A stretch of DNA of 32,555 bases from Acidithrix ferrooxidans (GTDB lineage Bacteria > Actinomycetota > Acidimicrobiia > Acidimicrobiales > Acidimicrobiaceae). Made by a program: the position numbers and the translations under genes. The first letter of the stretch is position 1, and each line of letters begins with the position of its first letter. The stretch covers positions 1 to 32,555 of the forward strand of contig NZ_JXYS01000032.1 of the NCBI RefSeq assembly GCF_000949295.1, read 5' to 3'. Shown piece by piece: positions 6,799-23,164 of the stretch. The notes under the pieces are model-generated. The model made no database searches. It was not told the DNA's origin and was given only the letters and a program-made list of their open reading frames with translations.

Positions 6799-8271
6799 TT
6801 AGCTTTTTATGGAGTTCAAATAGAGGGCGGCTTTTGCCTTAGCGGCCTTTGCGAGCGACTTTGAAAATGATAGATTGAAGGTTGGTTTGATCGCTGTCGG
6901 AGTTTGAGCCGTTACCATTCCTGCTACCACCCCCATCGAATAGGAGATGTCATCTAGCACTGAGATTGCTAAAAGCGATATTTTATGGTTGTTTTTTTTG
7001 TTGACCCATAGATTTGAAATTCCATATAACACAGCAATTTTGATGCTCCATTGTCGCAACCTTGGGGACACTAAGGATCCTATTAGGAGAAATGTTCCTC
7101 TCGATCTTATGATATTTTTGGTCGATCGGCGCATTTCGACCATTGAGATGTCGATCAGTTCCTTACTATTAGGGCGCGTATTTATGTTTAGTAACTTAAT
7201 TGTTCGTCTTCGATCTAGGCAAACAGCCGCTGCCCTGAGTGCCTCGCCTAGAAGAGGCGCAAACATAGAGATCAGAGCAAATTCATCTACTACCTCATGG
7301 CTGATTTGGCGACCATATAATTTTGCGAGTGGTCCACTGGAGCGTCCATAGCCAAAGCGTTGTTTGCAAAGGGATATAAGGCTATCTCTACTTGGGTGGG
7401 AGACGGTATTCTTGGCGTTGTAATAGATCGTTCTTTGATCCAGCAGTGCTCTTTTGATCAGATCGACGTCTTCGCCCAAACGCATTGATTCATCAAAACC
7501 CCCCAAAGCACAAAAGGTCTCCTTGACTATCGCTATGGCAGTTGAGGGCAGATAGCTACAGGATCGTTTCGATCCAACAAAACCTTCTCGCTCGCCTAGA
7601 TCTAGCGCGGAGTTGGTGCTTTCGTAGTTATCTATCAGTTTTTTAATGGACCTACCTGGCGCCGTGTCCCAAGAGTCAAGGGTTCGGATCCTGGGGGCAG
7701 CGATCTCGATTAGCCCTGGCAAAACAAGGGCGACTGTCTCATCTAGAGACGAATCAAAACTAAGAGCGCAATCTAAAAATAGAAGCAGTGATCCGCTGGC
7801 CTTTGCAGCACCGGCATTTCGTGCCCGTGCGGGACCATAATTTTTATCTAATGCTATGAACTTTGCTCCAAATTGCTCCGATATAGCTCTATTTTCGGAC
7901 ACAAAGCAAGAGCCGTCATCGACGACAATTATCTCCAATGCGCATCTGAGTTCCTTTGCGCATTTCAAGGTGTTTCTTAATCTATCTGGCGGATCAAAAC
8001 AAGGAATAATTACAGATGTATCTCTGGCTTTTAGTTGTTTGGACGGCATGGGGGAGACAGCGACGAGGCCAAAGTTCTGCAACCTCTCAAAGAGACGTAT
8101 CTCGGCCGGGGTTGAGATAGAAATAGGTGATTCAAGTGCGCGTTTGATCACAAAAGTGCCCGCCTCGGAGAGCTTGAGGGCTATCCTGGCGGGCACAGAG
8201 ATGAGGTTTGGGCCGACTAGCTCACATTCGCGTAGCGAAAAGTTGTAGGAGTCCCAAAGTCTATTAATCAA
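6799..8271 (-). CDS. mftF: MftF-like family 2 glycosyltransferase (mycofactocin type)
   Basis: 490 residues. An N-terminal region of about 85 residues (SVPARIALKLSEAGTF) precedes a GT-A family 2 domain. The domain shows TSVIIPCFDPPDRLRNTL, EIIVVDDGS, NYGPARARNAGAAKASG, LLFLDCAL in the DxD position, and GGFDESMRLGEDVDLIKRAL. The C-terminal part has helices and hydrophobic stretches. This arrangement resembles MftF, which adds a chain of glucose to mycofactocin, a peptide-derived redox cofactor. The neighbour supports this: the gene starts with a TTG inside the last codons of an NDMA-type alcohol dehydrogenase (8-base overlap), so the two are translationally coupled. Other members of the mft cluster (mftA, B, C, D, E) are not in the window. 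A generic surface-polysaccharide glycosyltransferase is the alternative. Confidence 0.72.
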   Translation of the reverse strand: MINRLWDSYNFSLRECELVGPNLISVPARIALKLSEAGTFVIKRALESPISISTPAEIRLFERLQNFGLVAVSPMPSKQLKARDTSVIIPCFDPPDRLRNTLKCAKELRCALEIIVVDDGSCFVSENRAISEQFGAKFIALDKNYGPARARNAGAAKASGSLLLFLDCALSFDSSLDETVALVLPGLIEIAAPRIRTLDSWDTAPGRSIKKLIDNYESTNSALDLGEREGFVGSKRSCSYLPSTAIAIVKETFCALGGFDESMRLGEDVDLIKRALLDQRTIYYNAKNTVSHPSRDSLISLCKQRFGYGRSSGPLAKLYGRQISHEVVDEFALISMFAPLLGEALRAAAVCLDRRRTIKLLNINTRPNSKELIDISMVEMRRSTKNIIRSRGTFLLIGSLVSPRLRQWSIKIAVLYGISNLWVNKKNNHKISLLAISVLDDISYSMGVVAGMVTAQTPTAIKPTFNLSFSKSLAKAAKAKAALYLNSIKS

Positions 8272-9373
8272 AGAGGATCATGCCACGAACGTTCTTGCCG
8301 TCACGCATATCCTGATATCCTTGGTTTACTTGATCTAGAGTGTAGGTCGCGGTCACCAATTCATCGAGCTTTACGATGCCGTCCATATAAAGGTCAAGGA
8401 TCTTTGGTATGTCGAATCGGGGATTAGCCGAGCCAAAGAGCGATCCGCGAAGTTGCTTTTGATAGAGCGTCATATCCAAGAGGCTTAGCTTTACATCGAC
8501 TTGTGAGAATGGAGAGATGGATGTGATTACGGCTTTTCCGTTCTTGCCCAGCAGAGCCATTACTGGAGCTACCAAGTGACCCTCGCCGACGCCGGTAGTG
8601 ATTACAGCTGAGTTAGCCATAAGGCCATTGGAGATTTCAGTTATAAGTCCGAAAGCTTCGTCTAGGTTGGCGGCTGAGTGGGTAGCGCCGAAGAACTTTG
8701 CGGAATCTCGTCGTGCTTCGACCGGGTCGATTGCAACGATGAACTTTGCGCCAGCCAATCTAGCCCCTTGGATTGCATTTGTGCCAATGCCTCCAACGCC
8801 TACAACAGCTACGATGTCTCCGGCTCTTACTTCAGCAGAATACAGAGCAGATCCGATTCCGGTAGTTACGCCACAACCCACCAAGGAAGCCTTGTCCAGT
8901 GGTACGTCATTTCGAATCTTGATCGCCGAACTCTCATGGACGACAACATAAGGTGAGAAAGTTCCAAGGCAGCACATGGTCCCAATTCCTTGGCCCCGCG
9001 CTGTAATTCTTTGGCCCCCGGCAACTTCTTGACCTGACATGATCAACGCGCCTAGTTCGCAGAGGTTCTGATGGCCCGTAGAGCAAGCGCTACAGCGACC
9101 GCAAGACGGTATGAATCCTAGAACGACGTGATCGCCTTCTGCCAAAGAGGTAACGCCAGGTCCAACTGCTTCTATGATGCCAGCCCCTTCGTGACCACCA
9201 ACGATTGGCAATACTGCTGGTAAGTCACCGGTAACTAGGTGTTCATCCGAGTGACAGAGGCCGGATGAGGCTAGCTTTACCCTGACTTCTCCATAAAGTG
9301 GATCGGCAAGTTCTACTTCTTCGACGCTCCACTCCTGATTGGTCCCCCATAATACTGCTGCACTTGTCTTCAA
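8264..9373 (-). CDS. Zinc-dependent alcohol dehydrogenase, NDMA-dependent (mycofactocin-linked) type
   Basis: 369 residues of the medium-chain dehydrogenase/reductase family. Cys40 in GLCHSDEH and His61 in GGHEGAG are catalytic zinc ligands, with the third cysteine in LVGCGVTTG. Cys91, Cys94, Cys97 and Cys105 (CGRCSACSTGHQNLC) bind the structural zinc. The nucleotide fold follows at VGVGGIGTNAIQGARLAGA. The opening MKTSAAVLWG and overall pattern fit the actinobacterial group measured with the artificial acceptor NDMA. In that group NAD is held tightly and recycled by mycofactocin instead of exchanging freely. It probably oxidises an alcohol to an aldehyde; the substrate is unknown. The start is TTG at 9373, 4 bases after a run of six Gs; the nearby ATG is out of frame. 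The MftF-like gene overlaps its stop by 8 bases. Confidence 0.88.
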   Translation of the reverse strand: MKTSAAVLWGTNQEWSVEEVELADPLYGEVRVKLASSGLCHSDEHLVTGDLPAVLPIVGGHEGAGIIEAVGPGVTSLAEGDHVVLGFIPSCGRCSACSTGHQNLCELGALIMSGQEVAGGQRITARGQGIGTMCCLGTFSPYVVVHESSAIKIRNDVPLDKASLVGCGVTTGIGSALYSAEVRAGDIVAVVGVGGIGTNAIQGARLAGAKFIVAIDPVEARRDSAKFFGATHSAANLDEAFGLITEISNGLMANSAVITTGVGEGHLVAPVMALLGKNGKAVITSISPFSQVDVKLSLLDMTLYQKQLRGSLFGSANPRFDIPKILDLYMDGIVKLDELVTATYTLDQVNQGYQDMRDGKNVRGMILFD

Positions 9374-10528
9374 CGGTCCCCCCGTTCATTTGAGGGATCA
9401 CAGCGACCCCATACCTGAATTAATAATACGCAATAGATGCATCTTAAGATGGTCAATTTTCTATACGAGTTATTAAATATTTTCACAAGAAGGCTCGATG
9501 GAAAGATCTTGCGCTACCTTGACTTGGCTATTTTGAGATAAATCAGTCACATTCAGACCAAGTAATTTATTCGGGGGGGGTAATTTTTGCCCATTTAGTC
9601 TTATTTGCCTCTTGGAGGTGACGTTGCCACCACGCCTTGAAAGTGATGTGTTGCATCTAGTTGCGACAGTCGAGATTTGTGTATTTGGAATTCGATGATC
9701 CCTCTGGAGTGACCCATTTGGGGGCAATCTGTTTTCCAGATTGAATTGGATGCAATTAGAGCGAGAATTTGTTTTGACTAATTCGATCACAACAGGGGTG
9801 CCTCCGTGGATCTTGAGACAATTGTTATGTCAGCCCGATTGTCATTGCTCGGCGAATTCTTGATGATTCACAATTGTTTGCATTGTTTGGCTTTTTCATG
9901 CTTGCTCTTTTGAATTGACGCTGTTTGGTTCTGTGGTTGCGGGTTACTTTTTTTTGTATGGATTGAAGATCTATCTGCCAGACCTAGCTGACAGATGTCA
10001 ATGTTTGATCCCAAGGCCTAGGCCTCTTGTCGATATGTGGATAAAAGCAAGCTGCCACGCAGTTTGGATAATGGCGTCATGAGATCTGATGGCAGATTCT
10101 GGTTCGCCAGAGGTTTTTAGGAGGTGTTGTCTGATCAACTTGTTGGTTCACAAGGGATTTTCGTTGTTTTTTGGGTGACTTTGGCAATTGGGGTTGCCAT
10201 GGAGGAGGGTGGTCGGGGCGGAATCTGACTCTTTGATCAATTTGATCGATTCTTTGGCAAAGTGCTTTTCGGTTTATATCTTCGAGGCGAAGTCCTTTGG
10301 GCAATAGGTTTCTTGTCATATCTTTGAGAGGACGGATTTGATAAAAGTCCATATCTCAAGGGTGCTTGTCGCAGTTGAACCTATGATCATGGTTGATTCT
10401 GGCACTTTGCTATCGACTAAATGTCGTAGAGGTGATTTTTGTCGAGGTCTTGAAAGTTAGTGTGGTAGCTAAGGAAAAAGTCGCGACCTCTATTACGTGC
10501 TTGACTCAGAGGGATGGAGTAGCCCAAA
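9374..10528. other. Long gap between dehydrogenase and dnaE
   Basis: More than 1.1 kb without a convincing gene. The plus strand is rich in G and T. It contains a run of eight Gs at 9573-9580, an imperfect inverted repeat at 9973-9996 (ATCTGcCAG / CTGaCAGAT around ACCTAG), and a 12-base perfect palindrome AGGCCTAGGCCT at 10014-10025. A minus-strand frame at 9473-9790 has a GGAGG ten bases before its GTG but an unusual Asn/Gln/Ser/Arg-rich product. I did not accept it. Promoters for both flanking genes must lie here, but I cannot place them. Confidence 0.4.
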
Positions 10529-21193: not shown

Positions 21194-21322
21194 CAAATGT
21201 GGCTCAGTGTGGCTAGGTCGGAGCCGATTTTCAATTTGAAGGTATCTTTTTCTTCGTCAAAACCCGTTTTACAAATAGATTGTCTTATTGTTGGTATTGG
21301 GCTTGTAGCCACAGGAGGTAGA

Positions 21323-23164
21323 TTGCGCGCGGAGTTTATCACTAGAGATAGAACGGGGAACTCTCTATCTTTTGGTGTCTTGGCCCTTATCTGTATCGCC
21401 TTTGTTGTTTTTCCAATCCTGGGACTCGCATATTACTTTTTGATACATCATTCCGCGCCTATTCTGTGGTCGTCTCTCTTTAGTGCAGTGGTGAATTCAG
21501 TAGTTCCGTCTCTGGTCGCCATCACCATCGGAATGATAATCGCAATTCCAACTGGTTTTTTCATCTCCCGAGCGACTAGTAAGGGCGTGGCATTTCTTGG
21601 ATTTGTTCTTCGTTTGCCGCTAGGAGTTCCACCGCTGGTTGCTGGTATAATGCTGTTGATTGTCTTTGGCCCGAATTCTCCGATCGGCAAGGTTTTTCAC
21701 GGACGCCTCACCAATACGCTAATCGCCATCACCATTGCCCAGCTCTTTGCTAGTGTCCCATATGTCATAGAGGGATCACGCGGCGCATTCGCCCTTTTGG
21801 ATGAGGAGGTAATGGTAGTTGCAGATTCGCTGAAGATGAAGTTGAATCGACGCCTCCTCTCAATCTATCTGCCTATGGTATGGTCAGCGATTCGATCTTC
21901 TTTGGTCCTTGGTTACCTAAGGGGATTTGGCGAATTCGGGGCAGTCCTTTTGGTTGCCTATAACCCTACTTCACTCCCTATCTACACCTATGTCTCCTTC
22001 GAGGGAGCTGGACTACCATCGACGGTCACACCGGTTCTTGTGACTCTGGTCATCTCCGGCACCGTTGCCTATTTGATATCTCGAATTGCATGGCCCACCA
22101 AGTTTATTGAGGGTGGATTTTCCTACTTCCGCAACCAAGCTAAGAAGCGATATCAGTCCAATTCAAAGGTCGAACGCGGTGACTTTGTGGATGGTGCTTC
22201 TTTTATATCGGTCGAGGGAACTGTAGGCGGTTTTGAGCTGGACATCAATTTCACTATCGAACCAGGATGCAGCGTAATCTTGGGTCCAAGTGGATCGGGA
22301 AAGACTCTTACCCTGCATTCTCTGGCCAACCATCGCATAAACGGCGTGAAGCTCTCCATCGATGGTCCTCTATCTGGGGCCCTTCAATCTTCTATTGGTT
22401 ATGTACCACAGCGCCTTGGCCTATGGCCACATATGACTGTGGAGCAAAATCTGCGCCTTTGCATTGATGTCTCTGGTTCGGATCTGGAGATCTCTGAAGT
22501 ATTAGAGGGGTTAGATATTTTGGAGCTACGGGGGCGTATGCCAAAGGAGCTCTCAGGCGGACAGTACCAACGAGCAGCGATCGCTAGGGCAATGTGCAGT
22601 GGTGGCAAGCTGCTTATTTTGGATGAACCCCTCTCCGCATTGGACCTCGCACTCAGGCGCTCTTTTTTGTCGCTATTAGCCGAGCACGTCAAGTCAAAGA
22701 CCCCATATCTGATCATGGTGACCCATGATGTGGATGAGGCACTTTATCTGGCGGATTCCATCGTGGTTATGAGTCACGGTGAGGTTCTACAGCAAGGGAC
22801 TCCCTCAAAGATTATCGACTCTCCTTACAATCGGGCTGTAGCGGGGATAGCCGGATTTGATAACATCATTATCGATCGCGACCAACAAGGAAATGGTTCA
22901 TTGGGTGATCGGGCCTATTTCTACTCGAGTGATGTTGTGCTAGCTCCCATTGATGTACTTGTCGAAGTAGGGCTAAAGGTTCTTGGAGATTATCAGGTGG
23001 TTGAGACACGTCCTTCAACCCGTGGTCGATTGGTTACCCTTAGCAATGGGGAAAATACTATTTCAGGATGGATTCCACCTGAGCGCATTACCGCTTATCA
23101 AAATGGCGAGATCGTCGGTGTCGGTATAAGAAAAGAGAGATATTTTAGGTTTCCCCCAGAGTAA
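21323..23164 (+). CDS. Fused ModB-ModC: ABC permease and ATPase in one chain
   Basis: 613 residues. TTG 21323 is chosen because AGGAGG ends four bases before it; the longer frame adds 42 residues with no family features. The first ~270 residues are a permease with about six membrane segments and the coupling-loop region (EEVMVVADSLKMKLNRRLLS; LGYLRGFGEFGAVLLVAYNP). After a linker comes an ABC ATPase: Walker A GPSGSGKT at residue 321, the Q-loop (IGYVPQ), signature LSGGQYQR at 410, Walker B LLILDEPLSALD, and H-loop VTHDVDEA. Residues ~530-613 resemble a TOBE-type oxyanion-sensing domain. It should import molybdate or tungstate with the upstream ModA. Fusing permease and ATPase ensures equal amounts; homodimers would supply both of each. 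Separate ModB and ModC are the more common arrangement. Confidence 0.88.
   Translation: MRAEFITRDRTGNSLSFGVLALICIAFVVFPILGLAYYFLIHHSAPILWSSLFSAVVNSVVPSLVAITIGMIIAIPTGFFISRATSKGVAFLGFVLRLPLGVPPLVAGIMLLIVFGPNSPIGKVFHGRLTNTLIAITIAQLFASVPYVIEGSRGAFALLDEEVMVVADSLKMKLNRRLLSIYLPMVWSAIRSSLVLGYLRGFGEFGAVLLVAYNPTSLPIYTYVSFEGAGLPSTVTPVLVTLVISGTVAYLISRIAWPTKFIEGGFSYFRNQAKKRYQSNSKVERGDFVDGASFISVEGTVGGFELDINFTIEPGCSVILGPSGSGKTLTLHSLANHRINGVKLSIDGPLSGALQSSIGYVPQRLGLWPHMTVEQNLRLCIDVSGSDLEISEVLEGLDILELRGRMPKELSGGQYQRAAIARAMCSGGKLLILDEPLSALDLALRRSFLSLLAEHVKSKTPYLIMVTHDVDEALYLADSIVVMSHGEVLQQGTPSKIIDSPYNRAVAGIAGFDNIIIDRDQQGNGSLGDRAYFYSSDVVLAPIDVLVEVGLKVLGDYQVVETRPSTRGRLVTLSNGENTISGWIPPERITAYQNGEIVGVGIRKERYFRFPPE

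Follow-up and report, generated by a model that had tools for sequence, protein, structure and literature searches.

An alcohol dehydrogenase gene of the mycofactocin-associated TIGR03989 family overlaps an MftF-like glycosyltransferase gene in Acidithrix ferrooxidans

MftF (TIGR03965; Rv0696, MSMEG_1426) is the glycosyltransferase that extends the glucose chain on mycofactocin precursors. M. smegmatis lost every glycosylated form, together with the aglycons PMFT and PMFTH2, when mftF was deleted, and the authors of that study consider it possible that the MftF protein is itself required (PMC7491314); MftF can therefore matter beyond its own sugar transfer. A 2011 survey places the zinc-dependent dehydrogenase family TIGR03989 only in species that have the mycofactocin system and describes MftD as present in most, not all, mycofactocin species; for PQQ, it notes that a lone dependent gene is usually clustered with the cofactor genes and that multi-member families scatter (PMC3023750). 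Linkage of client dehydrogenases to cofactor genes is known, as is a mycofactocin system with FadH/OYE oxidoreductases and Etf (TIGR03996, TIGR03997, NF038209). Our literature search found no paper combining mycofactocin with Acidimicrob- names.

We report a dehydrogenase gene of the TIGR03989 family in the acidophile A. ferrooxidans that overlaps a glycosyltransferase gene away from the other mft genes, an unusual but understandable variant of the known system. As in the described linkages, a client dehydrogenase is linked to a cofactor gene; unlike in those cases, no cofactor gene other than that for the glycosyltransferase was seen on the contig, and the two genes overlap by 8 bases. We read the two genes, with a probability of about 0.72, as a translationally coupled pair encoding a mycofactocin-dependent client dehydrogenase and a divergent MftF. 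The first-pass annotation had described a mycofactocin-type pair separate from an mft cluster; its observation is confirmed, and its interpretation is partly supported.

The stretch analyzed (the window) is the entire contig C32, 32,555 bases with 47.5% G+C, of the A. ferrooxidans genome (G000; 4,019,867 bases, 183 contigs), for which the published Py-F3 draft gives 4.02 Mb, 183 contigs, and 47.8% G+C (PMC4417699). The genome, at 4.0 Mb, compares with 1.9 to 2.8 Mb listed for 11 same-genus genomes. We used a family sample of 25 genomes (G000 and 24 others), searched at E ≤ 1e-40 for the glycosyltransferase (GT) and E ≤ 1e-100 for the alcohol dehydrogenase (ADH); a sample of 149 genomes drawn from the phylum, with MftF called at E ≤ 1e-60, a threshold that leaves G000 narrowly outside; and 80 named loci retrieved with the ADH as the query.

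The overlapping gene pair

The pair, its overlap, and the neighboring gene are as follows.

8264..9373, minus strand: NDMA-dependent (mycofactocin-associated) zinc alcohol dehydrogenase, TTG start, 369 aa; TIGR03989
6799..8271, minus strand: MftF-like GT2 glycosyltransferase, TTG start, 490 aa; TIGR03965, Pfam PF00535
8264..8271, minus strand: 8-base overlap TTGATTAA, with the GT TTG start within the last ADH codons
10529..14083, plus strand: dnaE (DNA polymerase III alpha), a divergent syntenic anchor, not part of the pathway

The ADH matched TIGR03989 over its full length at 535.3 bits, over the cutoff of 440, which bears out its first-pass identification as an NDMA-type enzyme. The family is linked to mycobacterial Mno/Mdo. 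Like other members, this ADH occurs in a genome with mycofactocin genes (mftA, mftC, and mftE); it differs in that its gene overlaps a glycosyltransferase gene. It is the sole TIGR03989 match in its genome at E ≤ 1e-100, compared with three or four copies in the four f44 genomes with MftF in the phylum sample. No TIGR03971 SDR was found in the genome at E ≤ 1e-60.

The GT TTG start sits inside TTTGATTAA, and if translation begins there, bases 8264 to 8271 are common to both open reading frames, as the first-pass annotation had it. The same-position TTG overlap was found in six genomes (G000, G002, G003, G004, G005, and G011), and half of the 12 adjacent pairs lack it. Our GT is about 30 to 33% identical, over the aligned parts, to those of the other five overlap genomes. 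The overlap requires TTT GAT (Phe-Asp) as the final two ADH codons. From local codon use, the expected frequency of this combination is 0.02 to 0.07 in the four of these six genomes with the highest G+C content, 0.17 in G005, and 0.37 in G000, with terminal codons included and with small counts for G002, G003, and G005. The rarity of TTT GAT in those four genomes suggests that the overlap may be under selection. A promoter scan of the window returned 4 sigma-70-like sites versus 6.0 in shuffles and found none upstream of the ADH on the ADH strand. The scan was uninformative and speaks against the coupled-pair reading insofar as cotranscription of the pair is putative.

The glycosyltransferase and its relation to MftF

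The best family for the GT is TIGR03965 (MftF), at 201.8 bits, with a match spanning positions 19 to 465 of the 467-position profile and thus extending beyond the GT2 domain into the additional N- and C-terminal parts that MftF carries. The runner-up NCBIfam family scored 64.4 bits, so no other GT2 family in that collection outscored MftF, the outcome that the first-pass annotation had named as fatal to its assignment. The score is below the cutoff of 280, however, and the same is true of all 13 family genomes with a match (144 to 243 bits); we therefore call the protein MftF-like and do not file it as MftF, a narrower form of the first-pass label. We rejected the possibility of a better MftF elsewhere in the genome, where the next match reached 81.5 bits over profile positions 72 to 281. 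Of the 13 other MftF-model matches in the genome, 12 were confined to profile positions 60 to 281, and one spanned 71 to 403 at 59.7 bits.

A predicted model of the GT had a mean pLDDT of 82 and a helical C-terminal part. A PDB fold search with this model retrieved GT2 enzymes, hyaluronan and cellulose synthases among them, with TM scores by query length of 0.30 to 0.46 in the 50 rows listed; the predicted fold is GT2-like, and the search says no more than that. In a tree of 46 glycosyltransferases, the 13 family sequences grouped together with support of 92/89 (below the tool's mark of 95), and the cutoff-grade MftF proteins of G040 and locus L174 did not join the main MftF group. Several branches were long, and the tree did not settle the deepest splits among the family GTs, MftF, and other GT2 enzymes.

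The DxD motif is the metal-binding motif of GT2 enzymes. Residues 167 to 169 of the GT read D-C-A, with Ala in place of the second Asp, and the glycosyltransferase activity is consequently putative. This replacement, along with Gly at the same position in G007 and G008 (D-C-G) and in L174 (D-S-G), sets these proteins apart from all 24 alignment rows labeled MftF, a few of which are under the cutoff or without a TIGR03965 score. It would fit a degenerate MftF scaffold that lost metal-assisted sugar transfer and was kept because the maturation complex, or the transfer of the cofactor to the ADH, requires its presence, as would the loss of unglycosylated PMFT upon mftF deletion in M. smegmatis (PMC7491314). 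We find this doubtful: the DDG, ARN, and GEDVDL motifs are intact, the frame is open, the fold is predicted with fair confidence, D-x-D is kept in 10 of 13 family rows, and L174 also lacks the Asp yet scores over the MftF cutoff. The score under the equivalog cutoff and the long branches and unsettled deep order of the tree would also be compatible with another GT2 enzyme that lies beside the ADH and acts on a different acceptor. That is very improbable given the near full-length MftF match, when most other matches in the genome stay within profile positions 60 to 281; LD[LM]G and YGxS stretches are common to the GT and most MftF rows, and at E ≤ 1e-40, the GT is confined to mftC-positive family genomes. 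Our preferred reading is a divergent MftF coupled to its client.

The pair and the mycofactocin genes

The other mycofactocin genes of A. ferrooxidans lie on other contigs, so the GT resembles MftF in co-occurring with mftA and mftC and differs in adjoining a client ADH gene on a contig separate from that of mftABC. On C107, a 7.5-kb contig, mftA (C107:1288; 45.5 bits, over the cutoff; frame ending in IDGMCGVY) is followed by mftB, named from its position and tblastn relatives, and then by mftC (522 bits, over the cutoff). This contig also carries an IS630-type transposase (L027, 6658 to 7437). mftE lies at C78:26922 (230.6 bits, over the cutoff), adjoined by a mycofactocin-coupled-SDR-like gene (178.7 bits; cutoff, 250). 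The genome also has OYE2 (816 bits, over the cutoff) with an OYE1-like neighbor at C78:56.5-60.5 kb, a feature shared with the FadH/OYE-Etf system. In G004, OYE1-like, OYE2, EtfA-like (below the cutoff), and FixC-like genes lie between mftC and mftE, whereas the OYE genes of A. ferrooxidans are about 29 kb from mftE, and mftABC are on another contig. The genes are thus spread over C107, C78, and C32 and do not form a canonical mftABCDEF cluster.

Own-genome searches, each at its own E-value limit, found no mftA, mftC, mftE, OYE2, or MftD-model match on C32, and tblastn found no mftB match of ≥60 bits in the window. A hidden mftA in the window was considered and rejected, since neither the mftA profile search nor a scan for stretches encoding IDGMCGVY with up to 2 base mismatches found one, in agreement with the first-pass reading of the gaps. 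The absence of mft genes near the pair also held; the 32,555-base contig limits the proven separation to 6.8 kb in one direction and 23 kb in the other. Separation from an mft cluster, as originally claimed, is right in that mftABC and mftE are on other contigs, but the contig ends make the distance a minimum, and the separation does not extend to five close relatives, in which the same pair lies about 5 to 7 kb upstream of mftA.

In the family sample, mftC was present in 19 of 25 genomes, the ADH in 14, and the GT in 13. All ADH and GT genomes were among the mftC-positive ones, and none of the six mftC-negative genomes had either gene (Fisher's test, 0.005 for the GT and 0.003 for the ADH, with genome relatedness ignored). 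Five mftC-positive genomes had neither (G001, G006, G009, G010, and G019; listed completeness, 73 to 91%), and G014 had the ADH with no GT match at 1e-40. The two genes were adjacent in the same order (ADH, then GT) and on the same strand in 12 of the 13 genomes with both, their matches at most 490 bases apart; the exception, G020, had a 144-bit GT match and its ADH on a different contig. Because adjacency was kept in 12 of 13 genomes, we rejected chance neighbors as an explanation. A whole or partial dnaE was divergent beside the pair in 9 of the 12 pair-bearing genomes; the G002 contig begins in the ADH, and none was seen in the stretch read of G007 and G008. Between the ADH and dnaE, window positions 9374 to 10528 comprise 1.15 kb without a convincing gene, and G004 has at this position a gene for a 524-aa protein with no Pfam match at 1e-5.

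In G002, G004, G007, G008, and G011, mftA follows the GT on the same strand, and the intervening 5 to 7 kb hold a PucR-type regulator, an aminotransferase, and a quinone-oxidoreductase-type gene. This arrangement in the closest relatives raises the alternative that the separation in A. ferrooxidans is only apparent, with the pair and mftABC close on the chromosome and the contigs broken between them. The small size of C107 and its IS630 transposase are in keeping with such a break, and in G003 a quinone-oxidoreductase gene split across two contigs suggests likewise. However, the dnaE-ADH-GT block of A. ferrooxidans is followed by katG and a gene that weakly matches DrmC where the relatives have the PucR/aminotransferase/oxidoreductase run, and the 1.2 kb before mftA on C107 has no match to that run. 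In G012, G013, and G018, which belong to other genera, mftC and the pair are on different contigs, and the pair is no closer than 19.8, 26.1, and 73.6 kb, respectively, to either end of its contig. We regard an apparent separation as rather unlikely. The pair and the mft core thus act as two blocks: the ADH and GT genes stay together, in most genomes next to dnaE, and their distance from mftABC varies between lineages. Separation from mftC is demonstrable over only 4.6 kb in G024, and genomes with the pair distant from mftC retain the mftC-OYE-Etf-FixC neighborhood, whole or in part.

Outside the family, the arrangement is uncommon, as the first-pass annotation had supposed. MftF was found in 18 of the 149 phylum genomes, and in none of the 18 did a TIGR03989 match (E ≤ 1e-120) come closer than 1 kb to mftF; the nearest was 3.6 kb away, and the ADH was present at E ≤ 1e-120 in 16 of the 18. 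A GT frame directly followed the ADH in 8 of the 80 loci, namely, seven loci that probably belong to the family and L174, and an MftF-like frame lay 2.1 to 3.6 kb from the ADH in three others (L195, L225, and L238). In L174, from a MAG outside the searched genomes, some 100 bases separate a 66%-identical ADH from the cutoff-grade MftF (324 bits) that follows it, and the order is mftE-like gene (by tblastn), mycofactocin-coupled SDR (348.8 bits; cutoff, 250), ADH, MftF. L174 bridges the divergent family GTs to MftF. Scatter of mft genes is not peculiar to A. ferrooxidans: in the one-contig genome G030, mftC, mftE-mftF, and mftD lie at least 0.7 Mb apart.

Proposed coupling and the question of MftD

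Under the coupled-pair reading, the ADH and GT would be transcribed as a single mRNA, and ribosomes finishing the ADH would restart at the overlapping TTG, so that the GT would be made in proportion. The GT would then glycosylate the MftC/MftE product, presumably by the beta-1,4-glucose addition that is the role of MftF, and the glycosylated cofactor may reoxidize the NADH bound in the ADH. With such coupling, production of the finishing enzyme would go along with that of the single TIGR03989 enzyme in the genome. Because gene order joins the mycofactocin glycosyltransferase to a single client dehydrogenase, the sugar chain or the MftF protein may be important to the enzyme that uses the cofactor as well as to cofactor synthesis. 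The lineage is a natural test of the purpose of the oligoglucose chain.

The genome search for mftA to mftE that had been proposed as a check recovered mftABC and mftE but no MftD-grade protein by profile search; a genome devoid of mft genes, the second outcome that the first-pass annotation had named as refuting it, was therefore not what we found. The only MftD-model match at 1e-50 (C25:76014-77114, L162) scored 218 bits against a cutoff of 470.85; we rejected it as MftD because the L-lactate dehydrogenase model scored higher (286.6 bits, itself below that model's 376). The genome therefore has no complete canonical cluster that we could find, and its end product may not be canonical mycofactocin. 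Mycofactocin genes without a recognizable MftD raise the question of how the redox center is made. In the phylum sample, MftD was over its cutoff in 15 of 18 MftF genomes. Among 22 mftC-positive relatives, MftD was over the cutoff in five (G005, G014, G020, G030, and G040; G005 is 65% complete, with MftD on a 3.5-kb contig), and OYE2 reached at least 764 bits in 14, of which 9 were over the cutoff and 5 at most 30 bits below it. The two never occurred together, and three genomes had neither (Fisher's test for exclusion, 0.002, with genome relatedness ignored). This pattern suggests that the redox center is formed or used in another way. We offer as a speculative and rather unlikely extension an Acidithrix-type variant without MftD in which an OYE pair, with Etf/FixC-like partners, forms or recycles the redox center and the divergent MftF, in some lineages without the DxD Asp, is a client-dedicated finishing or delivery enzyme kept in lockstep with the single TIGR03989 ADH.

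The remainder of the window gave minor observations. No Rfam family was found in it at the gathering score. Positions 1098 to 2600 encode a 500-aa protein, a short part of which matches DrmC, a phospholipase D-like protein of DISARM, below the cutoff. Positions 21197 to 23164 encode a 655-aa permease-ATPase fusion, its first half resembling a molybdate/tungstate-type ABC permease and its second half an ABC ATPase, and a gene for a substrate-binding protein precedes it.
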